A stretch of 57,957 nucleotides of DNA from a virus: IMG/VR virus record IMGVR_UViG_3300034375_000839, positions 1 to 57,957 of that record, one strand, 5' to 3'. A model generated the notes under the pieces. That model was not told where the DNA came from. It worked only from the letters and a program-made list of their open reading frames with translations, and made no database searches. The translations under genes were made by a program, and so were the position numbers. Every line of letters begins with the position of its first letter. Positions within the stretch are counted from its first letter, which is position 1. This document shows positions 5,347 to 42,720 of this stretch, one piece after another.

Positions 5347-5359
5347 ATAGGAGATAAAA

Positions 5360-5635: not shown

Positions 5636-5638
5636 TTA

Positions 5639-7417
5639 ATGGCATACATAGGAGTATCTCCTTCCAACGGAGTTAGACAAAAACATACCTATACTGCTAC
5701 TTCAGGTCAGACCACGTTTACTGGTTCAGACAATGCAGAGAATGTTACGTTAAGCTATAGAGATAGCAACTACGTTGATGTATATAGAAATGGTGTTAAG
5801 CTAGGTGACGCAGATTATACTGCCACTAGTGGTACATCTGTTGTACTAGGAGAAGGTGCTGCTGTTAATGATATAGTAGAGATTGTAACATATGATGTAT
5901 TCTCTGTAGCTGATACAGTAAGCAAGGCAGATGGTGGTACGTTTGATGGTAATGTTGCAATGGCAGGTACTCTTGCAGTTACAGGTGAGACTACTCTAAG
6001 TACACATCTTAACATGGGTGATAATGATATTATAAAAGTAGGTGACGGTGCTGACTTACAGATTTATCATGACCCATCTGCTCCCGGAGGAGCAACAAAC
6101 TTTATAAAAGAAAATGGAGGAATCTACACTTTTATTCAAGGTAATACTTTAAGACTAAGAAATAGAGATGGAAGTAAAAATTATATTAACATGGTTAGTG
6201 GTGCTGGTGTTGATATATACTACGATAATGCACCCAAACTAGCCACCACCTCAACAGGCATACAAGTAACAGGTAACATAGCTAATGCTAGTGGTGATTT
6301 TACACTTGATGTAGCAGGAGATATTACTCTTGATGCTGATGGTGAAGATATAAGATTAAAAGATGGTGGTTATGAATGGGGTAGATTTACTCATACAGGT
6401 CATTTTGGGATACAAAATCCAGTCAGTAATGCAGACATACAGTTTTTTGGCAATGATGGTGGTGCGACTATTACTGCTCTTACACTTGATATGTCAGATG
6501 CAGGTACTGCTACATTTAATCACGATATAAAACTATCTGATAATGCAATTATTGATTGTGGTGGAAACCTAAGATTAGATGCTGAAAATGCAAATATAAT
6601 TTTTCAAGATACTGGAACAGCTTATGGAAAAATATTTAAAAGTAGTGATGACTTTGTAATAAAATCAGAAATTAATCACGGAGACATAATTTTTCAAGGA
6701 TTTTATAATGGTTCTACTATAACTGCTCTTACCCTTAATATGGGAATTGATGGTACTGCCCAGTTTAAGGATAAAATACAATGCAATTCTATAAATACTG
6801 GTTCTTCTACTGGAAGTTTAACAATGTTTGGTGGTGGTACAAACAAGGGTGGTACGATTGAGTTATCAGGTGGTAACAATACTGGCTCAACTGGAGCAGG
6901 TATTGTATTTAAAACTGGTGCTTCTACTAGCAGTCCTTCAGAAAAAATGAGGATTGACCAATATGGTCATGTAACTATGCCAAATCAACCTGCTTTTCAA
7001 GTTTATGGTAATACAAATACAAGCATTTCCTCATTAGCAACTTACACAACAGCTATTTTAAATGTCGAAGTATTTGACCAAAATGGCGATTTTAACACAG
7101 GTAATTATAAATTTACAGCACCTGTTACTGGCAAATATCAATTAAATGCAATTGTTAGGTTAGATGATTTACAAAATGATTCTACTTTTTATATAGCACA
7201 GATAGGAACATCAAATAAAGAATATAAAGTGATTTTAGATACAGATGTTTTTAGTGCTGATTTACAATATCACACATTTACAATTAGTGTATTAGCAGAT
7301 ATGGATGCAAGTGATACTGCAGAAGTACAAGTCTATCAAAATTCTGGAACTTTAGGAAGTTCTGTAGTAATAGGAAATCCAAATTACACAATTTTTTCAG
7401 GCTACTTAGTAGCATAA
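5639..7417 (+). CDS. tail fibre protein, 592 aa
   Basis: The N-terminus MAYIGVSPSNGVRQKHTYTA followed by a TFTGSDNAENVTLSYRDSNYVDVYRNGVKL segment is a frequent virion-attachment domain of marine phage fibres. The middle is a beta-rich shaft with ADLQIYHDPS and repeated ITALTLDMSDAGTATF blocks. The C-terminal about 150 residues form a C1q/TNF-like jelly roll (FNTGNYKFTAPVTGKYQLNA is the classic start), a trimeric host-binding domain. The start at 5639 follows an AGAGG site. Confidence 0.8.
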   Translation: MAYIGVSPSNGVRQKHTYTATSGQTTFTGSDNAENVTLSYRDSNYVDVYRNGVKLGDADYTATSGTSVVLGEGAAVNDIVEIVTYDVFSVADTVSKADGGTFDGNVAMAGTLAVTGETTLSTHLNMGDNDIIKVGDGADLQIYHDPSAPGGATNFIKENGGIYTFIQGNTLRLRNRDGSKNYINMVSGAGVDIYYDNAPKLATTSTGIQVTGNIANASGDFTLDVAGDITLDADGEDIRLKDGGYEWGRFTHTGHFGIQNPVSNADIQFFGNDGGATITALTLDMSDAGTATFNHDIKLSDNAIIDCGGNLRLDAENANIIFQDTGTAYGKIFKSSDDFVIKSEINHGDIIFQGFYNGSTITALTLNMGIDGTAQFKDKIQCNSINTGSSTGSLTMFGGGTNKGGTIELSGGNNTGSTGAGIVFKTGASTSSPSEKMRIDQYGHVTMPNQPAFQVYGNTNTSISSLATYTTAILNVEVFDQNGDFNTGNYKFTAPVTGKYQLNAIVRLDDLQNDSTFYIAQIGTSNKEYKVILDTDVFSADLQYHTFTISVLADMDASDTAEVQVYQNSGTLGSSVVIGNPNYTIFSGYLVA

Positions 7418-8099: not shown

Positions 8100-9878
8100 A
8101 TGACAAGAGCAAAAGACATATCCAAGATAGTCACTGATGCAGACCTCAGTGGTACTCTTGATGTAACAGGTACAGTGACGGCAGGTGGGCTGACTTTAGC
8201 TCCTAGTCAAGTAATTAATTTAAATTCTGGTGCAGATTCTTTTGATGATATATTTCGTAATGACTCAGAAAACGCAACAATTATTAATGCTAGAAATAAT
8301 GTTAGAATAAATTTAGATTCTAATAGTGATAGCACAAGTGCTGAATTTGTTATTGGGTATAATGGCACAAACACAACTACAGCAAAGGCTTTATCTGTAG
8401 GTGAATCAGGTGACATCAGCTTCTACGAAGACACAGGCACAACACCAAAGCTATTTTGGGATGCTAGTGAAGAGGCTTTGGGGATTGGTACAACGACTCC
8501 ATCAACATTAATACATCTAGAAAGAGGCTCAACTGGTGCTGGTGGTGGTAGTAATGCAGGTATAACTATGACCAACAAGTTTGACTCTCCTGATAATAGT
8601 TGGTCAATCACTCCACAAAGAACTGGTGTTAGTAATACAGGATTACAAATAAGAGATGAGACTGATAGCAGAACAGATATGGTGTTTGATGGCTCAGGCA
8701 ATGTTGGGATTGGTACTAGTAGTCCATCTGATAAACTACATATTAAAGATGCGTCTTCAACAAACGTAATCATAGATGCACCAACAGATAATGCTAGTTT
8801 AACTTTGCAATGTGGTTCTTCAGATGCAGGAGCAGAGGGTGCTTTTATAAATTTTATTCAAAATACAACCTCTAAATGGCAAGTGGGTATGAACACTGAC
8901 AACACATTTAGATGGTATAATTATAATACATCTTCCGAAGCAATGCGTATAGACAGCAGTGGCAATGTTGGTATTGGTACTAGTAGTCCAGATGGTCGTG
9001 CAGACATTGCTCAAGACCAAAACACAACCAAGTTTACCGCACCTCACCTTGCCTTAACAGCTACTGGTACAACAGACACAACTGGGTTTACTGGTATATC
9101 TTATGCCACCTCTACTTTAACAAACTATGGTTGGACTGTTGGAGCATTAAGAGCAACATCTGGAGCTAATTCTGCTTTTCTTTTTACTCAACACAATGAC
9201 AGTGCAAGTGGTACAGAACGTATGCGTATCGATGCTAGTGGCAACTTGTTGGTGGGCAAGACGGCTACAGGTGACACGACAGAGGGTTTTGAAGCCCAAG
9301 CTAGTGGACGCACGACAATCTGTAGAGATAGCGCACAGCCTTTAAATGTTAGCCGAACAGGCACTGACGGCACACTGATAGCGTTTAAGGCGCAAGGCAC
9401 AGAAGAAGGTCAAATCACAGTATCTGGCACAACAGTTTCTTACAATGGTGGTCACTTAGCTAGATGGTCAAGATTACTTGATAACAGTAAAGACACAACC
9501 ATAGTCAAAGGTACAGTAATGACTAACCTTAATGAAATGGTTGAGTGGGGTGACGAAGATAACGAACAGTTAAATAAAATGGCAGTATCTAGTGTTGAGG
9601 GTGATGCTAATGTTGCAGGTGTTTTTGTTAACTGGGATGATGATGATGACTGGAATGACATGAACATTGCAATGACTGGTGATATGGTTATCCGTATTGC
9701 TCAAGGAATAACAGTCGCAAGAGGTGACTTGCTAATGAGTGCAGGAGATGGCACAGCGAAACCTCAAGGTGACGATATAGTTAGAAGTAAAACAATAGCC
9801 AAAGTTACTTCTACAAACGTATCACATACATATGATGATGGCACATATTTAGTGCCTTGTGTGTTGATGGCTTGCTAA
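8100..9878 (+). CDS. tail fibre protein with GNVGIGT repeats, 592 aa
   Basis: Starts MTRAKDISKIVTDADLSGTL, a widespread fibre N-terminus. It has repeated EAMRIDSSGNVGIGTSSPD-type blocks at roughly residues 195-215, 280-300 and 365-390. The C-terminal about 150 residues differ, with LLDNSKDTTIVKGTVM and NVAGVFVNWDDDDDWNDMN, an Asp-rich tip that may bind metal. The GGAGTAA site supports the start. Together with 3787 it shares near-exact 29-bp repeats, allowing recombination between the two genes. Confidence 0.8.
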   Translation: MTRAKDISKIVTDADLSGTLDVTGTVTAGGLTLAPSQVINLNSGADSFDDIFRNDSENATIINARNNVRINLDSNSDSTSAEFVIGYNGTNTTTAKALSVGESGDISFYEDTGTTPKLFWDASEEALGIGTTTPSTLIHLERGSTGAGGGSNAGITMTNKFDSPDNSWSITPQRTGVSNTGLQIRDETDSRTDMVFDGSGNVGIGTSSPSDKLHIKDASSTNVIIDAPTDNASLTLQCGSSDAGAEGAFINFIQNTTSKWQVGMNTDNTFRWYNYNTSSEAMRIDSSGNVGIGTSSPDGRADIAQDQNTTKFTAPHLALTATGTTDTTGFTGISYATSTLTNYGWTVGALRATSGANSAFLFTQHNDSASGTERMRIDASGNLLVGKTATGDTTEGFEAQASGRTTICRDSAQPLNVSRTGTDGTLIAFKAQGTEEGQITVSGTTVSYNGGHLARWSRLLDNSKDTTIVKGTVMTNLNEMVEWGDEDNEQLNKMAVSSVEGDANVAGVFVNWDDDDDWNDMNIAMTGDMVIRIAQGITVARGDLLMSAGDGTAKPQGDDIVRSKTIAKVTSTNVSHTYDDGTYLVPCVLMAC

Positions 9879-9894
9879 CTAACAGGAGAATAAA

Positions 9895-10206
9895 ATGGCA
9901 GTAACTTGGACAATCGCAAATATGGAAAGAGACTTAGTGCAGGGAGATAACACAGATATTGTGACTATTTTGCACTGGAGAGCATCTGATGAAGACTCAG
10001 ATGGTAACACAGGGTCAGCTTATGGCACAGTCGGTGTAACACTTGTAGGTACACCAACACCATACGCAGATATCACAGAGACACAAGCTATTGGATGGGC
10101 TAAAGATGCACTTGGTGCAGAGCAAGTAACATCAATAGAAGATGGTATAGCTGCTCAGATAGCTGCAAAAGCAAACCCAACAACAGCAAGTGGAGTATCT
10201 TGGTAA
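9895..10206 (+). CDS. fibre accessory protein, paralogue of 7756, 103 aa
   Basis: See 7756: the two share the N-terminal MERDL/MERQI region, the AIGWAKDALGA block and the terminal GVSW. Here the stop codon overlaps the next ATG (TAATG). The duplication brackets the fibre at 8100, suggesting that a fibre-plus-accessory cassette was copied or acquired as a unit. Confidence 0.65.
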   Translation: MAVTWTIANMERDLVQGDNTDIVTILHWRASDEDSDGNTGSAYGTVGVTLVGTPTPYADITETQAIGWAKDALGAEQVTSIEDGIAAQIAAKANPTTASGVSW

Positions 10207-20200: not shown

Positions 20201-21172
20201 CCTATATATGAATCAAGAGATGGAAACATATATACAAAGTTTGTAGATGGAGGTGCATTAGATACTTATGCATTTATAAAAGATGCAGCTAAAGCTATGT
20301 ATGGAGCAGTTCTTGCAGGTGTAAATCCTGAAGACACTAATATTAAAGATGATTTTGATGTTGAATTTAATAAACTTGTATCTCCTTTTATATCTGAAAA
20401 AGCTTTAACAAAAAGAATGTTAGAAATATATCAAGGAAGAGATGAGTATGGCAGAGAAATAAACAGACTAGATTCTACTAGTGAACTATTTACAAAAGAT
20501 TTAAATCCAGGTTTTGTAAAAAATATAGGAAAATTATGGGAAGATTATAATTCTGAAAAACATAAAGAAAGAAATGAGTTGCCTATAGCAGGTTCTAGCA
20601 AAGGTTATCCTGTAGTTTTTGAAGATACTGTATTCCATAATGCTACAGGTATTAGAAAACAAACTATGAATATTACTAAAGCTATAGGTCATTTTATATA
20701 TAACCAACAACAAGAAACTAAAAAACCTTATGAAAATTATATTAAAACATTAAAAGAATTTCCAACAAAAGTATATACTAAAGAAGATGAGTTAAACATT
20801 TTAAAGGCATATGCAGATTCACAGTTTGAAAAAAGAAAGTTAACAAAAGAATTTGCAGATAGATTAAATCAAATTAAAGAAATAAACTATTATAAAAAAG
20901 TAGGCGATAAAGTTTATAAACAAAAGTTTGGAATGAATGTTATAGCAAATGCAAATGCTAAACTAGGTAAAAGAAAGATAGATAAAAATCTTTTATTTTT
21001 ATTGACTGATAAAGGGGGTGCAGGATATTTTAAACCTGACAATCCTATAGATAAAAAAGCAAGAGAAATTATAAGAGATAAAAAACTACCACCTGAAATA
21101 ATGAATAAATTAATCTACATCAAAAATAAATTTGAAGGAAGTGCTTTAAGGAAGGACATTGACAATGAGTAA
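17288..21172 (+). CDS. large internal virion (ejection) protein, 1294 aa
   Basis: By far the largest gene. It is largely helical, with hydrophobic patches near residues 200 (AGLSVALGIPLAVIF) and 910-930 (RRLSGAILAGVGLDYMFG) that could insert into membrane. The region VVRALSRFPLGTYATFPAET is conserved in marine podoviruses, to my recollection. No lytic transglycosylase motif is evident, unlike T7 gp16. It is best read as the main DNA-ejection protein that leaves the capsid first. The start ATG 17288 follows AATAATA with a weak ribosome site. Confidence 0.6.
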   Translation: MSTEEKKLQTFLPDPFSPLGRTVTAGIGEALSDAAEMGSDALELIYGKKRADIIEDKLSNVVNFFDESLDKTEVGKATKQALQKSFYPTDLSPMQEVGKEIVSYVTPYTGVVKALKPVTKVIKKVSPRLEKGVRYGTAGVIADVIAKDENEQHLKPIMELVGAKGISEEVDDLVNKLDINPDDTVSERLLKQTIDSAGLSVALGIPLAVIFKVLKYSGGKALGKAKAIKNKVDTPVANTSNKIASDVKVVEQKPGKYLQQGKISSVLGKINTGLGRILTSKGAMPDELFKAYIKRKTYSEAKELAIKNNSKKLESVLKNASKGLNDADKQKLLDDTNELLKTKQFVKTGVKKLDGKVIDPGTIKEALKYSQLSSRLPNEIVDTVTKLRQSIDKESKNLKDLMGLSKNSKLGAVIDAKTSLTTTPSIELYLTKTYDFYTNPEWVKKLNKGLKEAKSFREGVTDNTHNTEVIDVINNMRTHLIKNNKSITENNVDGILDNFINDVTKKNKNSSGLFANIMDFTYDGKPIKVFTKRKDIDEPVANFLGEVKDPYRNYVETMRNLNKSVAKAQYLQDIKKFAEKYAGKDIKLGGFIPSWMGVPSQVSKIVRDSEIGTSTKLADLAKKEMGAIGSDGSSIGLGKYSTDDTLYKMIDEGIDVFDKYQSGNLFTNIFTRPAGYIQATETVFDQTAHAVNALGMLQTLIANGHILRGREAAKSAKTLYQKYANKDKDAMKFFEKAKLAAVVDTSVNAEIVRKNLNVLDEDLLARGSYKGKDLKEGAGLTFRKGKEGFRKFTKATADAYGIADDFGKLTALQAEIASYRKAFPNMSEDELFDYAAEVVRNTMHSYSTALPVVRALSRFPLGTYATFPAETLRTGKNIVIKGGQDFYNGISNIIKASKTGDKELFKTGLALAQIGSRRLSGAILAGVGLDYMFGNTDKDDIFGMGVSKEDSEGLDNLLSEWQQNTTKHFNTPIYESRDGNIYTKFVDGGALDTYAFIKDAAKAMYGAVLAGVNPEDTNIKDDFDVEFNKLVSPFISEKALTKRMLEIYQGRDEYGREINRLDSTSELFTKDLNPGFVKNIGKLWEDYNSEKHKERNELPIAGSSKGYPVVFEDTVFHNATGIRKQTMNITKAIGHFIYNQQQETKKPYENYIKTLKEFPTKVYTKEDELNILKAYADSQFEKRKLTKEFADRLNQIKEINYYKKVGDKVYKQKFGMNVIANANAKLGKRKIDKNLLFLLTDKGGAGYFKPDNPIDKKAREIIRDKKLPPEIMNKLIYIKNKFEGSALRKDIDNE

Positions 21173-22178
21173 AGATTTAACAAAACTATCTAGAAAAGAA
21201 CTAGAAAGTAAATTAGCTAAGAAGTATGGTGTAGATAAATATCTTAATCAGAGAAGCCAACTACTTGACTTATTAGGTACAAAGGGTGAGACTGATATAC
21301 AAACAGGATTTACAGGTCCTGAGACTGAAGCCTTGTCAATTATATTAGGTGATGCTAAAAAAGCAGAAGGTGGTATTATAAGTTTGGCAGTAGGGTCAGG
21401 TGGTGTAGGCTCTGAAGATGATGACGATTATAGTGGTAGTGGTCCTTCTGCAGATGAAACAGGTTCTGCTAATGAAGGTGATATGGGAGCTTCAGGTGGT
21501 GCAGGAAATGATGGTAGTGATAATAATGATGAGTCTATTGAAGTTTCAGAAAGAGGAGATGTTTTTGGTGCAGGTCCTACACAATATGGAAAAGATTTTA
21601 CTCAGCAACAAATAGATGCATACTCAGGAGAAGTTGATAGAAACCCTCAATTAAGAGGATTTTTGGGTAAAAGTATTAAAGATAAAATTGCTGAAAAAAA
21701 TTTTAATATAGAAAGAAATAAAGATGGTATGATTACAGGAGTATACAGTCAGGCAGGATTACCAGGAGCTTTAGGTGTACTATCAGGTTTGCTTGGTGGA
21801 CCTACAACAGGAACTGTTTATACTGGGTATGGTAAGGGTGCAGAAATTACAGGTAGTGATGATAATTCTGACGAGCCTTCAGAAATGATAAAGAAAATAG
21901 TTGAGGAACAAAAGGAAGAAGACTTACCACTTACTCAAGAAGAGATTGACTACTATACAAGAGGTATGGGTACTGCAACTAAACCTTTAAAAAGTTTAAA
22001 GGATGTTAATGAATATATGTCAAGCTTAATAGGAAAAACTGGAAGTCCTACAGGTGCAAAGCTTTCTAAGGATAAAAAGTTTTTAATATTACCTAATGGA
22101 AAGATTATCAATCTTAGGACAGGTAAGGTTCAGGAAAGCATGTCAGGTTTAGAATTATTCAGAGGAGGTTTAATCTAA
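21165..22178 (+). CDS. virion-associated hypothetical protein, 337 aa
   Basis: Start at ATG 21165 after AAGGAAGGA; an upstream in-frame TTG is less likely. The N-terminal KLSRKELESKLAKKYG helix is followed by an extremely Gly/Asp/Ser-rich acidic segment (roughly residues 80-135) and a C-terminal part ending GKVQESMSGLELFRGGLI. The acidic linker suggests a flexible or charge-mimicking region. It overlaps the 1294-residue gene by 8 bp and is coupled to the lysozyme by TAATG. Function unknown. Confidence 0.55.
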   Translation: MSKDLTKLSRKELESKLAKKYGVDKYLNQRSQLLDLLGTKGETDIQTGFTGPETEALSIILGDAKKAEGGIISLAVGSGGVGSEDDDDYSGSGPSADETGSANEGDMGASGGAGNDGSDNNDESIEVSERGDVFGAGPTQYGKDFTQQQIDAYSGEVDRNPQLRGFLGKSIKDKIAEKNFNIERNKDGMITGVYSQAGLPGALGVLSGLLGGPTTGTVYTGYGKGAEITGSDDNSDEPSEMIKKIVEEQKEEDLPLTQEEIDYYTRGMGTATKPLKSLKDVNEYMSSLIGKTGSPTGAKLSKDKKFLILPNGKIINLRTGKVQESMSGLELFRGGLI

Positions 22179-22665: not shown

Positions 22666-23052
22666 ATGTGGGGTGCAGTTATAAGTGGTGTGACGAGTCT
22701 TGCTTCTTCTTATATGGAAGATAGAAAAGTAAAGTCAGAACATAAAGCAAAAGTAGAACAGGCAAGAGTCAATGCAGAAATTAATAGAATTGAAAAAGCA
22801 GCACAGTCAGACCAAGACTATGACCTTGAAGCTTTACGACAAACAAGATACAGTTGGAAAGATGAATATGTACTTGTCATCATTACCTTACCTTTCATTG
22901 GAAGCTTCATACCTAATATACAAGACCATGTTCTCAAAGGATGGGAATATATAAACAAAGCACCTGAGTGGTATCAATGGAGTTTTATGGGAGCAGTTGC
23001 TGCTTCACTAGGTATCAGATGGGCTTTCAAGTTCTTCAGTGGTAAGAAGTGA
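22666..23052 (+). CDS. holin-like membrane protein, 128 aa
   Basis: Start at ATG 22666, 2 bp after the lysozyme stop. A weakly hydrophobic N-terminal region is followed by a charged helix. Two hydrophobic segments follow: VLVIITLPFIGSFI at about residues 70-83 and SFMGAVAASLGIRWAF at about 108-123. Similar 3-TM proteins after lysozyme genes are annotated as holins in marine phages and gene transfer agents. Its last 45 bp overlap the antisense terminase small subunit gene, an unusual convergent overlap. Confidence 0.65.
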   Translation: MWGAVISGVTSLASSYMEDRKVKSEHKAKVEQARVNAEINRIEKAAQSDQDYDLEALRQTRYSWKDEYVLVIITLPFIGSFIPNIQDHVLKGWEYINKAPEWYQWSFMGAVAASLGIRWAFKFFSGKK

Positions 23053-23484
23053 TTCGTCTTCTTCTTCCTCTTCCATATCTTCAGGAAAAGCTTTTGACAT
23101 TAATTCAAGCACCTTGTCTATCCCAAGAATTTCCATACCCTTAACAATTTCTTCCTCTAAGGAATCAGAAGTTATCTCATCTGCATCTATATTATTACCT
23201 CTAATTCTAGAGAGCAACTCTAATGCTTTTAATGCAGAAGTTGTTTGTCCTTGGGTACGTGCAACATTGTATTGATTTTCTATTTCATCAACAACGTCAA
23301 TGCTTGTTGTCATGTTAACAGTTAGTTCTTCTATTCTTTCTTGAATAGCAGTATCTTGTAGTAATCTTGAGCCTGTGTTGTGTGCAGAGACTTGACTATA
23401 TCCTGCATCCTTTGCGGCTCTTGTTGCATTCCTATGTAGGATATAGTTCTGACAAAACTTTTCATGCTTTTCTTTAAGCAGCAT
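23008..23484 (-). CDS. terS: terminase small subunit, 158 aa
   Basis: The N-terminal KFCQNYILHRNATRAAKDAG, then YSQVSAHNTGSRLL, is the helix-turn-helix of the Terminase_2 family, which recognises the packaging site and brings DNA to the large subunit. A central helical oligomerisation region and a very acidic C-terminus (FPEDMEEEEEDES) follow. I prefer ATG 23484; an upstream TTG at 23490 is possible. It lies on the opposite strand and about 19.4 kb from the large subunit (42933). It ends inside the holin-like gene. Confidence 0.8.
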   Translation of the reverse strand: MLLKEKHEKFCQNYILHRNATRAAKDAGYSQVSAHNTGSRLLQDTAIQERIEELTVNMTTSIDVVDEIENQYNVARTQGQTTSALKALELLSRIRGNNIDADEITSDSLEEEIVKGMEILGIDKVLELMSKAFPEDMEEEEEDESLLTTEELESPSDT

Positions 23485-25756
23485 TGTCAATCATCTCGTA
23501 GTAGTATTTTTCTTTTGCCTTCAAAGAGTTCTTCCAAACTTCAGAAACTAGTGTGTTAGTACCATGAACCTTGAGAGACATGTCCATATTCTTATCATCA
23601 AATAGTTTCTCACAGTCCTGTGCCATTGCAAGCAACTCTCCTGTAGTCCAAAAGTATTCTCCATTGGTTTCCACCTTAAAGTATTTAGGTTTACCTGAAG
23701 TTTTTTCTTTTTTCATTTCTTCTGTTACTTCAGGAACTGAGCAGTCAAAACCAAATAACTCAAAGTTTCTAAAGCCAAGTATGTGAGCAATGGATATTGT
23801 TCTCATGGCTGCACAAGTTCCACCTGATACCAATGTTTCTCCTTCTTCTATGCCTGTATCCTTAGCAATTTTAAGTTTATCTTTGACAGTCTTATCTCTT
23901 AGTGCTTCAGAGTAGGCAGACCAACCTTTAATATTTGCACCTTTTTTTATAAGGTATTTAGTAACTGAAGGGTCAGTCATAGAAGCTACAAGAAAGATGG
24001 TGTCCTTGTTTATCTTTTTAAATAAATCTTTTCTTACTACACCATGAGTACTTGTGCCTGTGATAGGTCTTGGGTCAAGTATAGAACATATAAAAGGACT
24101 GATGCCATGTTCTAGTAATTTAGGATAGCTGTGCTTAACACAAAAGATTTTAGTGTTAGGTTCTCTAGCTTTCTTTTTTAGTAAGTTAAAGTCTGTGCTT
24201 GAACCACCTGAAACAATAAGGGCAGTTTCATTATGTATTCTACCATGCTTCAACCAATTAAAATCTTTAATTAACTTTTTATTTTCTTTTATGTTTACAA
24301 ATATTTCATCCTTTGGTCTTGAGTCTTTAGGTGTAACCACAATAGGCATACGAGTAATTTCATCAGGTAGTTTTTCTACCTTCTTACTGTTAGCAACAAA
24401 AGCAATATGTGTTCTACCACCACCTAGAACTTTATCATTAGAGGGAAGAACAACTTTACCATATGCTTTTATTTCTTTTAGTAATTTATTAACACCCATA
24501 TTTTTTTCTAAAGGCTTCTGTCCAAACTCATCCTCAGAAAAGAAATCATCAAACACAAGTATAGGAACTTTCTTTAGATTATTATAGTCAGCCTTTACAG
24601 TTTCATATGAATGACCACCATCTATAAAAGCAAAGTCAACATTACGAGCTAACTTATTTTTCTTTAGTGTAATCTTAGAGTCACCTTTGTAAAGCTTAAA
24701 TATAAATTCTTTATTCTTCTCTTTCATTTTTTCTTTGAATTGATTTAGTCTTGTTTCAATAAGCTCTATTGTATGATGCTTCTTACTATTCATTTCTATA
24801 TCATCAGTAAGAGCAGTTGCTTCTTCAAACAAATCAAAACCAAAATATGTAAACCTGTCTGTGTATTCAAAGGCTGCAAGTGCCATTTCTATAGCTCTGC
24901 CACCATTCCATGTACCTACTTCAGTAAGTGTTTTAGGTTTGTAGTGTCTTATAATATCTGCAAGCTGTCTATATCTAGGTAACTTTACATCCTGTGCAAG
25001 AGTATTCTTTTTGTTTTTTAGATTACCTTTGTAGTGTATAAAATATTCTGAAAGAGGTGACTGCATGAAGGCAGTAAGACCTTTACAATTTTCTGATAGA
25101 TTGTTGACTACCATACCATGTGCCTTGTAGATATTAAGAAGTCTTTCAAATATAAAACCATCATGCCATTCTCTGTACGAAATAGTTTCACCTATTGTAT
25201 AACAACCTCTTAGGTCTGCAAGTATTGAACAGGCATCATGGTACTGTAAGTTAAAACCCATGAAGCTTGTTTCGCTGTAGTCAACATCTTTTCTTCCTAG
25301 ATGTACAAGACTTGCTTTGTTAGGTAACCACTTGTCAACTGCAGATTTATCTAGTCTCTTTGTAGTAACTGTATCTGCATCAAGCCATACTAACCACTGA
25401 GGTTCTTCAGGGTTCTTATTTTCTTCCATCATCTTGAAGGCTCTGTCAGTTAGGGCATACACTTTATGACACCACTTGACTGCATCTAGTCTCCAGTTGT
25501 AAGGCATTGTTCCACCTTCAGTACCATCATGCTTCTTCATCTTCTCACGATAGTCAGTCATTTCTTTTACATCATTAAGATGTATATATACAATGCTAGA
25601 AGAAGTAGGATGGTCAACCTTTTCAATGTCAAAATCATGGTAGTAAGCATATAGTTTAAAATGTTTTGGATTCCATTTTTCTGCCACACTTTTAAGCATT
25701 TCTTTTGCATAGGTATTATATCCTTCCTCGCTGAAAGAAGTTACGAATGTATACAT
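23474..25756 (-). CDS. three-domain glycosyltransferase / methyltransferase / DUF115-like protein, 760 aa
   Basis: I start at ATG 25756 (AAAGGAA site, 1 bp after the upstream stop). An open frame continues 45 codons further but overlaps that gene. Residues about 1-235 are glycosyltransferase-like with an LDADTV metal-binding motif. Residues about 250-460 are a class I SAM methyltransferase (LTEVGTWNGGRAIEMAL, and FAFIDGGHSYETVKADYNNL for the acidic loop). Residues about 500-760 resemble DUF115/MptE-like enzymes of flagellin-glycan synthesis (ALIVSGGSSTDFNLL, HGISPFICSILDPRP). It probably builds or modifies a glycan on virion or host surface; the substrate is unknown. It overlaps terS by 11 bp. 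Confidence 0.75.
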   Translation of the reverse strand: MYTFVTSFSEEGYNTYAKEMLKSVAEKWNPKHFKLYAYYHDFDIEKVDHPTSSSIVYIHLNDVKEMTDYREKMKKHDGTEGGTMPYNWRLDAVKWCHKVYALTDRAFKMMEENKNPEEPQWLVWLDADTVTTKRLDKSAVDKWLPNKASLVHLGRKDVDYSETSFMGFNLQYHDACSILADLRGCYTIGETISYREWHDGFIFERLLNIYKAHGMVVNNLSENCKGLTAFMQSPLSEYFIHYKGNLKNKKNTLAQDVKLPRYRQLADIIRHYKPKTLTEVGTWNGGRAIEMALAAFEYTDRFTYFGFDLFEEATALTDDIEMNSKKHHTIELIETRLNQFKEKMKEKNKEFIFKLYKGDSKITLKKNKLARNVDFAFIDGGHSYETVKADYNNLKKVPILVFDDFFSEDEFGQKPLEKNMGVNKLLKEIKAYGKVVLPSNDKVLGGGRTHIAFVANSKKVEKLPDEITRMPIVVTPKDSRPKDEIFVNIKENKKLIKDFNWLKHGRIHNETALIVSGGSSTDFNLLKKKAREPNTKIFCVKHSYPKLLEHGISPFICSILDPRPITGTSTHGVVRKDLFKKINKDTIFLVASMTDPSVTKYLIKKGANIKGWSAYSEALRDKTVKDKLKIAKDTGIEEGETLVSGGTCAAMRTISIAHILGFRNFELFGFDCSVPEVTEEMKKEKTSGKPKYFKVETNGEYFWTTGELLAMAQDCEKLFDDKNMDMSLKVHGTNTLVSEVWKNSLKAKEKYYYEMIDNAA

Positions 25757-25757
25757 A

Positions 25758-26522
25758 TTAATTTTCCTTTGGTAATATTCTTGAGTTGTATGAGTTGTGT
25801 AGTGTATCCCACTCACCTGCGTAGTGAGCATCACATAGTCTCTTTGGTTTCCAACTGTCAAACCAAGGACCACCTGTAGTAAAATGTACATTACATGGGT
25901 TTATTGATTCATCAGTCCATCCATCTAGGAAGTTCCACTTAGGATGGATAGAACCTATCTCTTCATCTTCTAGCCAACTAAAGTTATGTAGCCATCTACC
26001 TGACTGTTCATTAACATCCTTGATTGTAAGTCTTTTGTTGGCAGGGTGTTCGCAGTTCCATAGTATAAAGCTAGACCAATTCTTTCTATTATAATTAGTC
26101 TGTATTTGATTGTCCATTTTAAAAATTTCTTTAGGCTTGTACTCATGCTTAACAACAGAGACTGCATACTCATCAAACTGTCCATACTCTTCAAAGACTT
26201 CTGTTATGTCTGCTCTTAACAACATATCACAATCCATAAAAATAGCAAGACCTTTATGAAGATTAATAAAAGGTATTAAGAATCTTGTAAATGTAAACTC
26301 ACTACTGAAAGGTCTCTTGTCTGAAGAGTCTATCTTCTGATGTTGGTCATCAAGAAAGTAAGTTCTTTTGTAGAGACCTGATAAACGTAGGGATGATTGT
26401 TCAAGGGGAATGATATCATATTTATGGGTATACTTTTCTATTGAAAATTTTAATACCTCAAAAGCAATATGTTCTTTAGGGTCATACCCTACATATATAA
26501 CAGGTCTTCTACTAGTAAACAT
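25758..26522 (-). CDS. glycosyltransferase, GT8-like, 254 aa
   Basis: VIYVGYDPKEHIAFEVLKFS at the N-terminus is a nucleotide-sugar binding beta-alpha unit. FMDCDMLLRAD carries the DxD metal motif. PFSSEFTFTRFLIP and HFTTGGPWFDSW match GT8/GT24-like folds. It transfers a sugar from a nucleotide donor. I use ATG 26522; a GTG at 26531 is possible. It is 1 bp from the three-domain protein, so the two act together. A similar enzyme occurs in cyanophages. Acceptor unknown. Confidence 0.75.
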   Translation of the reverse strand: MFTSRRPVIYVGYDPKEHIAFEVLKFSIEKYTHKYDIIPLEQSSLRLSGLYKRTYFLDDQHQKIDSSDKRPFSSEFTFTRFLIPFINLHKGLAIFMDCDMLLRADITEVFEEYGQFDEYAVSVVKHEYKPKEIFKMDNQIQTNYNRKNWSSFILWNCEHPANKRLTIKDVNEQSGRWLHNFSWLEDEEIGSIHPKWNFLDGWTDESINPCNVHFTTGGPWFDSWKPKRLCDAHYAGEWDTLHNSYNSRILPKEN

Positions 26523-26524
26523 TT

Positions 26525-26755
26525 TTACCACTTAAAAAATTGGTCAATTAAATTAAAGTGATTAGGCATGACAGTTGTTGCTCCATACTTTTCTTTTGCA
26601 ATATCTCTATACTTATTATATTTTTGAGTTGCAATTTCAGAAGCAGCTTCAAACTCTTTCCATGCAGATTTTAAGTCACCATACTTTAAGTCTTCCACTT
26701 CTTTTTGTTTAGATTTTATTTCTTCTTCAAGTTTTTTAATCTTATCGTCTGACAT
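26525..26755 (-). CDS. coiled-coil accessory protein, 76 aa
   Basis: A charged coiled coil from the start (KIKKLEEEIKSKQKEVEDLK), then a second helix with aromatic residues and a hydrophobic C-terminus (HFNLIDQFFKW). It is the first gene after a strong promoter and has an AAAGGAG site. The stop is 2 bp before the glycosyltransferase ATG at 26522. It may scaffold the two transferases; that is inference from operon position. Confidence 0.65.
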   Translation of the reverse strand: MSDDKIKKLEEEIKSKQKEVEDLKYGDLKSAWKEFEAASEIATQKYNKYRDIAKEKYGATTVMPNHFNLIDQFFKW

Positions 26756-26796
26756 AGTATACTCCTTTCCATTACCAGAAGATTTCTTCTATAGGA

Positions 26797-26825
26797 ATTA
26801 TAATATATATTGAATAGTGAGTCAA
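26797..26825 (-). promoter_or_regulatory. strong sigma-70 promoter of the glycosyltransferase operon
   Basis: Reading the minus strand: TTGACT (26825-26820), a 17-bp spacer, TATAAT (26802-26797). This is within one base of the bacterial consensus. It fires 42 bp before the coiled-coil gene and gives the glycosylation/terS block its own transcription unit, independent of the nucleotide-metabolism operon upstream. Confidence 0.75.
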
Positions 26826-26832
26826 GGACTTT

Positions 26833-27459
26833 TTAATAAAAGTACTCGTCAGTATCTCCAAGCCTTTTATTCTTTTCGTTTTCTACTTGGTAGTACTCTG
26901 TACTTACTTTAAAATCAGGCTTCAAAGGTTCTTCAGGTGTGAGGGAATTATCATAGACTCTCATTCTGTTATTGGGATAGAGAGCATACTGTCCATTCAC
27001 AAGTTCAATTAAATTAAAAGACTTATGCTCTTCAGGCACTTCACTTGTGCTGTAGTCTATTTCATCTGCAAAGGGATGGTAGTTATCAAGGGTGCAGATA
27101 TAAAATCCCTTGACAGTTCCAAAGTCATGTGTTAAAATTTCGTAGTCCATTGTGGAGATAAACTGTTTATGTATGTTGACTACACCATAGTCCATACAAT
27201 TCCAAAACTGTAAATTGTTAAGTGGCATATCAGGGTCAGGTAACTTAGGCTTGGACAGGAATGCAGAGATGGGAAGCTTGTCAAACAATGCACCATACTT
27301 AGGAAGATATGTTTCAAAGTAGAAGGCTCTTCCAGGTATTGACTTAGCAGTCACCCAGTTACCTTCTACAAATTCTCCATGACCATCCTTGAAGTCTCTT
27401 AGATATTCTTTTCTTACCCATACTTTGTTTGAAGGTAGGTTAGCTATTAGTGTTGACAT
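26833..27459 (-). CDS. conserved phage protein of unknown function, 208 aa
   Basis: WVRKEYLRDFKDGHGEFVEG, then SIPGRAFYFETYLPKYGALF and DKLPISAFLSKP, are strongly conserved in hypothetical proteins of marine podoviruses and cyanophages that I recall. The middle holds VPEEHKSFNLIELVNGQYAL and PNNRMRVYD. It is a soluble protein with no recognisable catalytic motif. It lies 3' of the ribonucleotide reductase and ends 8 bp before the -35 box of the next promoter. Function unknown. Confidence 0.7.
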   Translation of the reverse strand: MSTLIANLPSNKVWVRKEYLRDFKDGHGEFVEGNWVTAKSIPGRAFYFETYLPKYGALFDKLPISAFLSKPKLPDPDMPLNNLQFWNCMDYGVVNIHKQFISTMDYEILTHDFGTVKGFYICTLDNYHPFADEIDYSTSEVPEEHKSFNLIELVNGQYALYPNNRMRVYDNSLTPEEPLKPDFKVSTEYYQVENEKNKRLGDTDEYFY

Positions 27460-36501: not shown

Positions 36502-36732
36502 TTACCAATCCCTTCTATCTAAGTCAAAGGCACGTCTTAAATCCCACATGCTCTGCTCTAAGTTTCTTATGTCAGATAAATATAAGTCTTGACACTCAAA
36601 CAACATCTGTAGTGCTGAACTTACATGCCTTTCAGTTTCTTTAACTGCTTTCATTTGTTCATCAGTCATACCATCAATACCTTTTTTCCTATTAATTTCA
36701 ATTAATTCAGATTCACTTTTTTTATTAGTCAT
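36502..36732 (-). CDS. small hypothetical protein, 76 aa
   Basis: A helical, charged protein (TDEQMKAVKETERHVSSALQ and SDIRNLEQSMWDLRRAFDLD). Coupled by TAATG to the methyltransferase gene, so it may regulate or assist that enzyme; that is a guess. Not recognised. Confidence 0.5.
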   Translation of the reverse strand: MTNKKSESELIEINRKKGIDGMTDEQMKAVKETERHVSSALQMLFECQDLYLSDIRNLEQSMWDLRRAFDLDRRDW

Positions 36733-37754
36733 TATACATACTCCTTGTTGTTATTGTTATACATTTCATTCCATCCATCTAAGTGGATACCTTTTAATAT
36801 GTGTGCAATCACATCAACTGTCCAACCATTGCCAATCATCTTGTATCTTTGTGAGTTGGATACATGATTAGTGTAGTTGTCAGGTAGTGTTTGTAATCTC
36901 TCACACTCAAGTGGTGTAAGCTTTCGCCACATGTCCTTGCTAGTTGCAACCTTTGGTTCTCTATGTCCACCTTGCATGGTGGTAAGTGTAGGTGCTTTAC
37001 CTTCTTGTGCATACACTCTCTTGATTGAGTCATGCCCTTTGAGGTCAGCAGTACCTACTCTAATCAATCCATCTTTAGACATGGTAGGGTTCTCCTTGAG
37101 TACCATAGTACGTTGCTTACGTTCAATACTATTCCACCATACTGCACCATTATATCTTGCAGTAAGGCAATGAGACTTACCACCACTAGTCATCTCTTCA
37201 GTCTCATAACCATCTTCAAGTATGTTCTGCATAGTCAAGCCTTTGCATATCATAGGTGGTATAGTTATCTGCTCATAGCTATCTCCTACACGTTTACCAA
37301 ACCAATACAATCTGTATCTGTTTTGTGCTGATACATACTTAGAGTTCAATGGTTGAGGTTGGAATCCCATGTAATCAGATATTACATCTTGAGATTTCTT
37401 AGCCATTCGTACATTCTCTAGCAGTACATACTTAGGTTTAACTATCTCAAGCATCTCCACGAAATTAAAGAACAATTTACTACGTGGGTCATCAAAGTTA
37501 AGCTGATGTCCTGCGAATGAGAACCCTTGACAAGGTGAACCACCCATCATCAAATCAATATCCCAATATGCTATCTCGTGTGGGTCTAAGTCTGTAACAT
37601 CTCCTAGCTGAACAGTATTAGGAAAGTTAGCTTGAGTTACCTTGATTGGATACTTATCAATCTCACTTGCAAAGTAGTTATCTACCTTGAAGCCTGCTCT
37701 TTGTAGTGCAATTTGACCACCACTACAACCATCAAATAAACTTAGTACATTCAT
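36732..37754 (-). CDS. DNA cytosine-C5 methyltransferase, DNMT3-like, 340 aa
   Basis: Motif I LSLFDGCSGGQIAL binds SAM. Motif IV GGSPCQGFSFAG has the catalytic Cys75. Motif VI is LLENVRM, VIII QNRYRLYWFG, IX KLTPLECERLQTLPD and X GNGWTVDVIAHI. KVDNYFASEI and DDPRSKLFFNFVE recall eukaryotic DNMT3 enzymes (KDLGIQVDRYIASE, RLFFEFYRLL), a known phage type. It methylates C5 of cytosine, probably protecting phage DNA from host restriction. The target sequence is not readable. AGGAGT site. Confidence 0.9.
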   Translation of the reverse strand: MNVLSLFDGCSGGQIALQRAGFKVDNYFASEIDKYPIKVTQANFPNTVQLGDVTDLDPHEIAYWDIDLMMGGSPCQGFSFAGHQLNFDDPRSKLFFNFVEMLEIVKPKYVLLENVRMAKKSQDVISDYMGFQPQPLNSKYVSAQNRYRLYWFGKRVGDSYEQITIPPMICKGLTMQNILEDGYETEEMTSGGKSHCLTARYNGAVWWNSIERKQRTMVLKENPTMSKDGLIRVGTADLKGHDSIKRVYAQEGKAPTLTTMQGGHREPKVATSKDMWRKLTPLECERLQTLPDNYTNHVSNSQRYKMIGNGWTVDVIAHILKGIHLDGWNEMYNNNNKEYV

Positions 37755-39693: not shown

Positions 39694-40104
39694 CTATATG
39701 TAAACTTTAGGGTTACCATTTTGTGTTGAATCCATGTGTATCATACCAACCCAATCTCTTGGAATCTCATTCCATTCTTTAGGTTTGTATTGGTTATCAC
39801 TCATGCCTTGATGCATGAAGTAATCATCTTCATATGGGTTATATTTTACTCTATCCCAATCAGCAAACTCTTTCTTCAAAGATTCTGATGTGGATACAAA
39901 ATACTCACTCATATAGCCTACTGCAAAGGCATGAACATTCTTCTTACCTTCTTGTCGCACTCGCTTCTGTCCACCTTTACGAACAATAAAGTTACCTTCA
40001 AGCACTACACATTTCTTATGGTCTATCACTAGACCACTCTTGCAATCTTGTATGCTCCAAGTTTTCTTGTGTAAGTTCCAATAAACTCTAACTTTTTTCT
40101 TCAT
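39694..40104 (-). CDS. conserved hypothetical protein, 136 aa
   Basis: I start at ATG 40104 (AAAGGAAAAGTAATG). KKKVRVYWNLHKKTWSIQDC, then GLVIDHKKCVVLEGNFIVRK and GGQKRVRQEGKKNVHAFAVG, are a motif set found in hypothetical phage proteins, including cyanophage ones, that I recall. It may be a nucleic acid-binding protein from its high Lys/Arg content. Function unknown. Confidence 0.6.
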   Translation of the reverse strand: MKKKVRVYWNLHKKTWSIQDCKSGLVIDHKKCVVLEGNFIVRKGGQKRVRQEGKKNVHAFAVGYMSEYFVSTSESLKKEFADWDRVKYNPYEDDYFMHQGMSDNQYKPKEWNEIPRDWVGMIHMDSTQNGNPKVYI

Positions 40105-40378
40105 TACTTTTCCTTTCATGTTGTTTATACCAATCTAAAGATGCTCCTCTAATTAGATTTGTATACTCTATACCATATCCACTTCCTGCCTTCAATGTTT
40201 CTTTATCAAGTAAGTGTTTATGCATATGGTCTATGTTATCCCAATTATCTAATATCTTTTTACATAAATAATCAAATTGGGTATCTTCTAAAACATTCAA
40301 ATCACATTCATAATATAAGTATGAACTCATTAGATAAATAGGAACTAGCCTATTATTTGAAATGTTATTTAATTCCAT
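40088..40378 (-). CDS. hypothetical protein, 96 aa
   Basis: Helical protein (RLVPIYLMSSYLYYECDLNV, then LDKETLKAGSGYGIEYTNLI) that resembles a small DNA-associated early phage protein. Strong GGAGAAGG site. Overlaps the genes on both sides. Not recognised. Confidence 0.55.
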   Translation of the reverse strand: MELNNISNNRLVPIYLMSSYLYYECDLNVLEDTQFDYLCKKILDNWDNIDHMHKHLLDKETLKAGSGYGIEYTNLIRGASLDWYKQHERKSNEEKS

Positions 40379-40958: not shown

Positions 40959-40983
40959 TATTTATCCTTTCAAGAAATGAAAA

Positions 40984-41004
40984 GGAAGCACATAGTATGC
41001 TTCC
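40984..41004 (-). terminator. rho-independent terminator after 41016
   Basis: Perfect 7-bp stem GGAAGCA / TGCTTCC with a 7-nt loop, followed on the minus strand by TTTTCATTT. It lies 12 bp downstream of the stop of 41016-41228 and limits the repeat-promoter gene string. Confidence 0.65.
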
Positions 41005-41015
41005 CTAATTAAGTT

Positions 41016-41228
41016 TTACTTAACCAAGCTTATGCTTGATTTATGAACATTAAGCTTTTGAGCAAGTGACTCAATAAACTGTTCAGTTGTACACCACTTA
41101 CCACTTAGTAAGTCTTGGTTACTGTTTCTGAAAGTAACACTTGTTAGGGTTGGTGCATTCTCACTACCATTGTTATGAGAAATAGAGAAAGTTTTAAATC
41201 CTTTAGGATTGTATGAATTTTTAAGCAT
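41016..41228 (-). CDS. small early protein with putative DNA-binding helix, 70 aa
   Basis: KTFSISHNNGSENAPTLTSV, then CTTEQFIESLAQKLNVHKSS, includes a short helix-turn-helix-like C-terminus. It follows repeat copy 1 by 38 bp and a strong AAAGGAAA site, and has a terminator behind. It is a single-gene cassette. It may be a small regulator; the role is unknown. Confidence 0.6.
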   Translation of the reverse strand: MLKNSYNPKGFKTFSISHNNGSENAPTLTSVTFRNSNQDLLSGKWCTTEQFIESLAQKLNVHKSSISLVK

Positions 41229-41266
41229 AACATTTTCCTTTCATTTAGTTGTTAATTGCTTAGTAG

Positions 41267-41290
41267 TATATATTGATTTCTATGTATCCA
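41267..41290 (-). promoter_or_regulatory. early promoter repeat, copy 1
   Basis: Minus strand TGGATACATAGAAATC then AATATATA, one of five copies. A TATACT box runs over its end. It stands 38 bp before the ATG of 41016-41228. Exact match of 24 bp to copies 2-4. Confidence 0.75.
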
Positions 41291-41309
41291 TAGTTCAAAT
41301 ATACTTAGC

Positions 41310-41336
41310 TAGGTAGGAAAGGGGAAGCCCTACCTA
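41310..41336 (-). promoter_or_regulatory. hairpin between early cassettes (possible terminator)
   Basis: An 8-bp stem TAGGTAGG / CCTACCTA encloses an 11-nt purine-rich loop. It lies after the stop of 41353-41562 and before repeat copy 1. No U-tract follows, so it may be an RNA-processing or stability element rather than a terminator. Confidence 0.45.
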
Positions 41337-41352
41337 ACAAGGTATACTTGGT

Positions 41353-41562
41353 TTACTTTAACCTAGCTATATTATTTTCTATTGCATCATAAAATATGTC
41401 CTCATTAAATCTTGGGTTTTGTGATGCACAATAAACCCTTACCAATTCTATTTCTGAATGAGTATAATTATTCCTAGCAATGATTTTAGTTATTTCTTCA
41501 AAATCTCTTTTAGTAGGATTTTTTCTAATCTTGTATTCAAATACGTCATCTCTAATCCACAT
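41353..41562 (-). CDS. small early protein, 69 aa
   Basis: Helical, charged protein with FEYKIRKNPTKRDFEEITKI, then NYTHSEIELVRVYCASQNPR. It follows repeat copy 2 by 29 bp and a strong AAAGGAA site. Not recognised; cassette structure same as its neighbours. Confidence 0.6.
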   Translation of the reverse strand: MWIRDDVFEYKIRKNPTKRDFEEITKIIARNNYTHSEIELVRVYCASQNPRFNEDIFYDAIENNIARLK

Positions 41563-41591
41563 TGTTTTATTCCTTTCTGATTAGTTGTTAT

Positions 41592-41615
41592 TATATATTG
41601 ATTTCTATGTATCCA
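41592..41615 (-). promoter_or_regulatory. early promoter repeat, copy 2
   Basis: Exact copy of the 24-bp repeat, followed by TATAAT. It overlaps the last codons of the upstream gene: its first bases are read there as Met-Asp-Thr-stop. 29 bp before the ATG at 41562. Confidence 0.75.
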
Positions 41616-41838
41616 TTTTTCTAAATTTGTAGTATTCATCAATTTTTTCTAGTGTATTATGTCTAGCATTTAGTATATTAGATAAATCAATTATATCTAC
41701 ATATTTAGGATTAATAGATAATAATTCATTTAGTAATTCATCAAATACTCTTTTTACTTCTTTTACTTGATAGTTTTTAAAAGTATCTTTTCCAAACTTT
41801 CTTGTAATTTCTTCTTCTAGTTTTCCTGTAGTATTCAT
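41605..41838 (-). CDS. small early coiled-coil protein, 77 aa
   Basis: LEEEITRKFGKDTFKNYQVK, then EVKRVFDELLNELL and a C-terminal helix ending FRKMDT. Its 3' end lies inside repeat copy 2, so the repeat doubles as coding sequence. It follows repeat copy 3 by 28 bp. Not recognised. Confidence 0.6.
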   Translation of the reverse strand: MNTTGKLEEEITRKFGKDTFKNYQVKEVKRVFDELLNELLSINPKYVDIIDLSNILNARHNTLEKIDEYYKFRKMDT

Positions 41839-41866
41839 AATGTTTTCCTTTCTGATTAGTTATTAT

Positions 41867-41890
41867 TATATATTGATTTCTATGTATCCA
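41867..41890 (-). promoter_or_regulatory. early promoter repeat, copy 3
   Basis: Exact 24-bp copy followed by TATAAT, 28 bp before the ATG at 41838 with its AAAGGAAA site. It starts 1 bp after the stop codon of the upstream gene. Confidence 0.75.
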
Positions 41891-41891
41891 A

Positions 41892-42143
41892 TTAGATAAC
41901 ATTATTTAATTTACCTTGTTGTATCATTAATATAATAAATCTTTTTAACATATCTTTTTCTTCAATTAGATTAAGCTTCCTATTTCTTTTATTTTCTATT
42001 TCGTCATATGGGTAAATAAAACTATCATATAATAATTCTATGTTTTTATCTAAAATTATATTTAATAGTTTATCTTCTTTTATACGTGATAAGAAGGAAG
42101 CAGTATCTAAATCCATATCATTTTTATTAGTTATCATAATCAT
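41892..42143 (-). CDS. small early protein, 83 aa
   Basis: MIMITNKNDMDLDTASFLSR, then IKEDKLLNIILDKNIELLYD and DMLKRFIILMIQQGKLNNVI, a helical protein with hydrophobic heptads, perhaps a dimer. First gene of the minus-strand early region, 47 bp after repeat copy 4, with an AAAGGATAA site. Not recognised. Confidence 0.6.
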   Translation of the reverse strand: MIMITNKNDMDLDTASFLSRIKEDKLLNIILDKNIELLYDSFIYPYDEIENKRNRKLNLIEEKDMLKRFIILMIQQGKLNNVI

Positions 42144-42190
42144 TTATCCTTTCATTGTTTAATGATTTGTGTTTATAAATTTCTTATTAG

Positions 42191-42214
42191 TATATATTGA
42201 TTTCTATGTATCCA
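42191..42214 (-). promoter_or_regulatory. early promoter repeat, copy 4
   Basis: Exact 24-bp copy, followed by TATACT on the minus strand, 47 bp before the ATG at 42143. Confidence 0.75.
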
Positions 42215-42371
42215 ATATAGTTTTATATAGTTATTTCAATAACTTATATTAATATTGGGTAGTGGGTAGGTAGTAAGTAAATAATGCAATATATAAACTC
42301 ATTAGATTAATAATAGATTTATGTAATCTTTCTAATCTAAACAGTTTGTTTTATTAAAAAATTTATATAGA

Positions 42372-42395
42372 TATATATTGATTCTTATGTATCCA
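42372..42395 (-). promoter_or_regulatory. early promoter repeat, copy 5 (variant)
   Basis: Same repeat with a two-base difference (TACATAAGAATC instead of TACATAGAAATC on the minus strand). No gene follows directly, but it lies 158 bp upstream of copy 4 and may be a further early start or an activator/origin site. Confidence 0.6.
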
Positions 42396-42541
42396 TTTAG
42401 AAAAAGGTAGTTTTTTGATAGAATTATATAGAATAGTATCTACCCCTACCAAAAAATCCTAGCTGTATATAATATATATATACCCTACCCCTAAATATTT
42501 TTAAAATTTTACAGGACTAACCATGCTCAACCTAGCTAAAT

Positions 42542-42553
42542 GGGTCGCCGCCT
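42542..42553. other. GC-rich 12-mer resembling lambda cos core
   Basis: On the minus strand it reads AGGCGGCGACCC. Lambda's cohesive end is GGGCGGCGACCT; the ten central bases agree. Such a GC-rich block is odd in this AT-rich region and sits 0.4 kb before the terminase large gene. A candidate cos site; chance similarity remains possible. Confidence 0.3.
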
Positions 42554-42617
42554 GATTAAGTTGATATGAGTATTTATAGTTTGAGTATAAAGTAATATAT
42601 AATTACAATAGGAGGTT

Positions 42618-42652
42618 GGGGTCTATCTATTTACCCCCGGAGGTCTAAATAG
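42618..42652 (+). promoter_or_regulatory. alternative hairpins in the leader of the packaging operon
   Basis: GGGGT (42618) can pair with ACCCC (42633), or CTATTTA (42627) with TAAATAG (42646). The two stems share bases, so only one can form. A GGAGGT also lies between. This is the layout of a switchable leader, though it could instead belong to a packaging or origin site. Confidence 0.35.
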
Positions 42653-42685
42653 AAAATAACATACTTTCCTATTTTATACAATAGT

Positions 42686-42705
42686 GTTATAATATTTTTT
42701 ATAAC
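42686..42705 (+). promoter_or_regulatory. -10 box with overlapping operator-like palindrome
   Basis: TATAAT at 42688-42693 is embedded in GTTATAA (42686-42692), spaced 6 bp from TTATAAC (42699-42705), a perfect 7-bp inverted repeat. The -35 (TTTCCT at 42665) is weak. A repressor bound here would cover the start site and control the late operon. Just upstream of an AAAGGAAAA ribosome site. Confidence 0.5.
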
Positions 42706-42720
42706 AACAAAGGAAAACTA

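Follow-up and report, generated by a model that had tools for sequence, protein, structure and literature searches.

We analysed a viral DNA stretch of 57,957 nucleotides (nt) (IMG/VR record IMGVR_UViG_3300034375_000839; hereafter, the window) and focused on a minus-strand operon that encodes a three-domain transferase fusion, a partner glycosyltransferase and the terminase small subunit (TerS). From a sigma-70-like promoter (TTGACT, 17 nt, TATAAT; 26797-26825, minus strand), the operon runs through a coiled-coil-like open reading frame (ORF) of 76 amino acids (aa) (26525-26755), a gene for a 254-aa glycosyltransferase of the family 8 (GT8) type (25758-26522) and the fusion gene (23474-25756), a single open frame of 760 aa with an ATG start. 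It ends in terS (23008-23484), identified by Terminase_2 (E 2.3e-15) and phrog_51. The stop codon of the GT8 gene lies 1 nt before the fusion ATG, and the fusion gene overlaps terS over 11 nt. An original prediction, made from the sequence without database searches, had described this run into terS, the orientation opposite to the late operon and the promoter; all of these hold, with late genes on the plus strand up to 23052, facing terS, and the promoter exactly at 26825-26797. At 34.3%, the G+C content is the same in the cluster and in the window, and there is thus no sign of recent import.

The fusion chain combines three predicted transferase domains, as originally proposed. Residues ~1-245 (25022-25756, minus strand) have no Pfam match and are called a GT-A glycosyltransferase from their fold and two phage homologues; they carry DAD at residues 126-128 and EWHD at 196-199. 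Residues ~258-460 (24377-24985, minus strand) form, by Pfam and fold, a class I S-adenosylmethionine (SAM) O-methyltransferase with an ETGTWNGG-type SAM motif and IDGGHSY..DD (Methyltransf_24 at residues 279-397, E 7e-10). Residues ~480-760 (23477-24319, minus strand) are assigned by Pfam and fold to the MptE-like/Maf_flag10/DUF115 transferase domain (PF01973), matched at residues 485-675 above the curated cut-off (E 3.2e-17) and in all 25 tested members of the two clades described below. Because phmmer of the fusion against the PDB gave no match, and profile searches of its GT-A, methyltransferase and MptE domains against the PDB gave none that was significant by sequence, fold comparison was needed. 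An AlphaFold2 model of the whole chain, built with 27 sequences, had a mean pLDDT (per-residue confidence) of 78.4 and a pTM (predicted template modelling score) of 0.46, a low value that leaves the relative placement of the three domains uncertain. Its top Foldseek match in the PDB was the Magnetospirillum Maf protein 5mu5 (E 7e-8, 556 columns), with further matches to LARGE1, GlyE and GT6 enzymes and to the O-methyltransferases COMT, TrmR and SpnH. The Pfam calls and known folds would place the glycosyltransferase matches in domain 1, those to O-methyltransferases in domain 2 and the Maf match in domain 3. Glycan and methyl transfer, the activity type originally suggested, is therefore supported as a prediction by fold and conserved motifs.

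The partner protein carries MDxD and VHFTTGGPW motifs. Its profile matches WbbM (E 6e-4), GlyE and glycogenin, and its model matches the folds of WbbM, GlyE, LgtC and glycogenin. The homologue in the Pelagibacter myophage Mosig passes the Pfam cut-off for Glyco_transf_8, whereas the window protein itself does not, and identity to the GT8 family (the WbbM GT8 domain, GlyE, LgtC and glycogenin) is only about 10–17%, despite the common fold, MDxD motif and weak profile similarity. By profile and predicted fold, the partner is a genuine GT8-type enzyme. Its pairing with the fusion also stands, because the gap between the two genes is +1 or −1 nt in 25 of 25 representatives measured. Hydropathy revealed no transmembrane segment in either protein, and both are therefore probably cytosolic.

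A first scan of IMG/VR found 304 stretches encoding relatives of the fusion, and counts for the clade that includes the window (clade 1) come from the best 80. All 75 complete clade-1 copies among these are one open frame of 740–800 aa and are at least 66% identical to one another. A second clade of 69 IMG/VR loci, which was reached through a phage contig binned in a metagenome-assembled genome (MAG), has fusions that are 42–55% identical to those of clade 1 (mean between clades, 48%). The unbroken frame and its recurrence in a second clade argue against a frameshift or assembly error, and the gene order GT8–fusion–TerS is kept in every locus long enough to show it. Clade-2 loci read GT8–fusion–methyltransferase–(holin)–TerS, mostly with HSP20 before GT8; in one of them (locus L085), HSP20 and a GTA-type holin, which often stand before GT8 and TerS, respectively, in this clade, lie at 5259-5714 and 9608-10021. 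Of 65 clade-1 loci, 50 have a promoter-type match (TTGAC[AT], 16–18 nt, TA[TA]A[AT]T) near the start of GT8, in the stretch 600–1,300 nt upstream of the fusion; the number expected by shuffling the sequence is 0.34. The coiled-coil ORF, which the original prediction had included with the GT8 gene as a promoter-sharing partner, occurs only in loci whose fusion is at least 78% identical and not in the wider group; we therefore rejected it as a member of the system and regard it as a lineage-specific accessory, whereas the GT8 gene was retained.

With the large terminase subunit (TerL) of the window as bait, every contig longer than 50 kb had the fusion (L033, L054, L080, L276, L295, L303 and the window). 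Five TerL-positive contigs shorter than 40 kb were without it and, by the window map, their ends stop short of the fusion region, which makes this lack uninformative. Clade-2 contigs longer than 50 kb that have the fusion (L180, L181, L191, L194, L201, L217 and L220) were retrieved through the fusion itself, and so show synteny rather than universality. Altogether, 13 related contigs above this length were examined, and each encodes the fusion. Within clade 1, identities are 80–83% for TerL, 82–90% for the capsid protein, about 71% for ribonucleotide reductase (RNR), 66–70% for the fusion (distant loci), 54–62% for GT8 and 22–36% for the late protein s1294. The fusion is thus close to RNR and far above s1294, indicating that it has been conserved much as core genes are. 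The median ratio of non-synonymous to synonymous substitution rates (dN/dS) is about 0.11–0.12 for all three domains in clade 1 and 0.08–0.10 in a clade-2 subclade described below (10 pairs); values of 0.30–0.51 in the rest of clade 2 are suspected to reflect synonymous saturation and composition bias.

On these sequence comparisons, the GT8–fusion module next to TerS belongs to the core of a large lineage of marine phages that is still uncultured. The nearest cultured TerL relatives, HTVC027P and HTVC023P, are 39–40% identical and gave no hit with the fusion at a threshold of E 1e-5, and no cultured member of the lineage was found in the phage collection searched. A profile scan of genome contigs with the whole fusion alignment found no relative. 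An MptE-only scan of the same kind found one locus, on a contig that was assigned to a Sneathiella MAG but is of phage origin, and no bacterial homologue; the bin is no proof of host.

Among all readable sequences compared, there is no variation in the GT8 MDxD (61 of 61 readable clade-2 proteins included) or in LDPR, MTDPS and GGTCAA of the MptE domain. The SAM motif ExGTWNGG of the fusion methyltransferase is kept in both clades (WNAG in 11 proteins). IDGGHSY and DD are present in 76 of 76 clade-1 proteins, the window included; in clade 2, they are replaced by IGGGN or IGGGD and by DN or DH in 56 of 56. A separate SAM methyltransferase gene follows the fusion in each of the 58 clade-2 loci that reach at least 450 nt downstream, and its 58 aligned copies all carry DV(L/M)EH, with a clear SAM-binding glycine motif in 39. 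It therefore looks as though the internal methyltransferase has been replaced by a separate enzyme in clade 2 and that methylation matters to the pathway; the motif loss together with the added gene suggests that methylation is probably needed.

Unfused versions of the same parts occur in other phages. Homologues of the GT-A domain are encoded by separate genes in Mosig (Mosig_189, E 2e-19) and in the podovirus ct7QV12 (a frame near the large terminase, E 3e-14). In Mosig, the GT8 and GT-A homologues (Mosig_188/189) are adjacent and follow two FkbM methyltransferases, whereas Mosig_187 and Mosig_185 gave no match to the MptE domain; the GT-A/GT8 pair is found in most Mosig-like contigs among those listed. 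In ctDrO704, a GT8 homologue and the FkbM methyltransferase next to it stand among the head genes, flanked by those for the capsid and head completion. In the Caulobacter phage CcrColossus (gp126/gp129), a GT8 homologue comes behind a tail protein together with the MptE-like gp126 (PF01973 E 1.5e-7, just under the curated cut-off), and in the Stenotrophomonas phage DLP_6 (AAY80_200-202), one is placed between a methyltransferase and a gene of the GT29 sialyltransferase family. In cyanophage S-SCSM2R, KdsB and KdsA stand next to the GT8 homologue (L315 7099-8520), hinting at a supply of the donor CMP-Kdo (cytidine monophosphate-activated 3-deoxy-D-manno-oct-2-ulosonic acid). Judged from gene content, GT8 with a sialyltransferase-fold enzyme and/or a methyltransferase is a recurring phage combination. 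In the modules of Mosig, CcrColossus, DLP_6 and ctDrO704, in which the GT8 homologue lies by methyltransferase and/or sialyltransferase-fold and GT-A genes, these are separate and uncharacterised, whereas in the window a single chain carries the three domains, in an order that does not change. Some Mosig-like contigs also have, near the GT-A/GT8 pair, homologues (44–50% identity) of a 208-aa gene at 26833-27459 (minus strand) of the window that matches phrog_3704 (labelled ferredoxin; E 5e-103).

The original interpretation is partly supported, but the idea of an undescribed system is not supported in that form. A protein of an uncultured Caudovirales phage, A0A6J7X5Q0, matches the structure over its full length (33% identity over 768 columns); it is annotated solely as a methyltransferase-domain protein, and we found no study of it. 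Several MptE-like phage proteins are likewise already deposited without characterisation. Searches of the open-licence literature under MptE-like, DUF115 and 6-hydroxymethylpterin diphosphokinase found no such phage system described, and a paper on uncultivated HTVC023P relatives names three glycosyltransferases but is silent on methyltransferases, MptE and DUF115. Among studied enzymes, Maf proteins O-glycosylate flagellin with CMP-activated nonulosonic acids, one of them accepting Kdo, and their PF01973 domain is preceded by a Rossmann domain with methyltransferase-like features (PMC11339370). The fusion and Maf (5mu5) have PF01973 in common, directly preceded in both by a Rossmann-like domain, which in the fusion is the methyltransferase (residues 258-460). 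The fusion differs in its extra N-terminal GT-A domain, methyltransferase motifs that are intact in clade 1 and phage context. The C-terminal flagellin/FliS-like helical domain of Maf is not in the fusion model; the chain ends ~85 residues after PF01973, where strands and short helices are modelled and no large bundle.

A second comparison is with chlorovirus PBCV-1, in which A064R, one soluble chain of two glycosyltransferases and a methyltransferase, finishes the capsid glycan together with the separate methyltransferase A061L (PMC9614988). Like the fusion, A064R joins three transferase domains (a GT-A with DxD, a second glycosyltransferase and a SAM methyltransferase), and A061L stands alongside it as the separate methyltransferase does in clade-2 loci. 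However, the domain order is glycosyltransferase–glycosyltransferase–methyltransferase rather than GT-A–methyltransferase–MptE, the second glycosyltransferase differs and A064R has no MptE/Maf domain. Its host is an alga, and its acceptor (the N-glycan of the major capsid protein) is proven. The likeness to the fusion would be one of working principle, by analogy.

We propose, with about an even chance of being right, that the operon is a soluble, self-contained unit that assembles a small O-methylated glycan, with a virion protein as its probable carrier. Enzymes of the GT8 and GT-A kinds draw on nucleotide-sugars. In the cytosol of the infected cell, the MptE/Maf-type domain would attach a single sugar, which by analogy with its family would be an ulosonic acid activated with CMP, such as Kdo or a nonulosonic acid. 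One or two hexoses from nucleotide-sugars would be added by the GT8 and GT-A domains, and the methyltransferase would cap the glycan through O-methylation. The likeliest acceptor would be a tail-fibre or capsid protein of the virion, produced late in infection, and its decoration might tune adsorption, stability or shielding of the phage particle. We favour the virion side because unfused relatives adjoin head, tail and large-terminase genes and the module lies beside TerS and holin; a Kdo-type donor is suggested by the S-SCSM2R GT8 relative with KdsA/KdsB and by the Maf enzyme that can use Kdo (PMC11339370). Separately, a fast-evolving, 339-aa Gly/Ser/Asp-rich protein (21159-22178, plus strand), encoded just before the lysozyme gene and without a Pfam or PHROG match, is a conceivable glycan acceptor.

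Several observations weigh against this proposal. The methyltransferase swap maps to a single split between the clades in the tree, so it is one event and not 58. The GT-A DxD is lost in 14 clade-2 proteins (13 in an NTN subclade, the DxD-less group with low dN/dS, and separately in L216), indicating that some lineages manage without the enzymatic function of this domain, which is thus not always catalytic. The TerS neighbourhood is an association only; the upstream neighbours are early-type genes (RNR), and the Pelagibacter myophage relatives lie among nucleotide-metabolism and replication genes rather than structural ones. CMP-sugar use would follow from family analogy alone, and the acceptor, the sugars and the activity of the pathway are candidates only.

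The strongest alternative is that the enzymes act on the host surface during infection, on lipooligosaccharide or a different glycan there, which would block superinfection or alter receptor exposure. Lipopolysaccharide (LPS) enzymes (LgtC and WbbM) are among the GT8 relatives in the PDB, KdsA/KdsB beside the S-SCSM2R relative suit LPS chemistry and earlier work, cited in a passage of PMC9599517, took pelagiphage glycosyltransferases as LPS modification. However, neither enzyme has a membrane anchor, and no flippase-like family was found among the operon genes scanned. The module is also strictly kept and slowly evolving, whereas surface-exclusion genes would usually be expected to change fast, and it shares one operon with the late functions TerS and, in clade 2, holin. 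We consider host-surface remodelling possible but rather unlikely.

The enzymes could instead modify a small molecule or host metabolite, such as a nucleotide or cofactor that becomes glycosylated and methylated, with MptE as a literal pterin diphosphokinase. This would fit the family name, because PF01973 also covers archaeal MptE; given that the fold match is a Maf glycosyltransferase, that the neighbours are glycosyltransferases and that no folate or methanopterin genes were found among the proteins scanned, it seems quite improbable. Phage DNA glycosyltransferases are known, and the window encodes a C5 cytosine DNA methyltransferase (36732-37754, minus strand; profile match, E 8e-55), but glycosylation of modified bases in phage DNA is very improbable, because that gene has a scattered distribution in the lineage (3 of the 14 related records, all 14 of which have the fusion), the transferase domains resemble protein- and lipid-glycan enzymes and a Tet/JBP oxygenase was not found (a weak absence, as the control for that search was silent).

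Two further features of the window lie apart from the operon. A 96-aa protein (40088-40378, minus strand) corresponds to a single part of an NAD-dependent DNA ligase, its NAD+-binding Ia domain (PF22745, E 6.5e-13); the rest of the ligase is not in that frame. Between the divergent early and late operons, ~2 kb (40959-42932) with a single ORF of at least 80 aa (41892-42143, minus strand) is a possible control or origin region.

A broader form of the virion-glycan proposal, which we put forward tentatively, is that the module constitutes a core autonomous pathway for phage protein glycosylation, in which the Maf-type domain would start the glycan by placing a CMP-activated ulosonic acid on a virion protein, and the glycosyltransferases and methyltransferase would extend and cap it. 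If true, this pathway would be to a bacterial virus what the capsid glycan machinery is to chloroviruses, and it would be universal in a marine lineage that is abundant and uncultured. Phage particles with glycans have seldom been characterised, and a short, fixed operon offers a compact system in which the enzymes, the gene order and a natural methyltransferase replacement are all readable from sequence. Confirmation of virion glycans would give a testable role to phage MptE-like genes, which are misleadingly named as pterin kinases.

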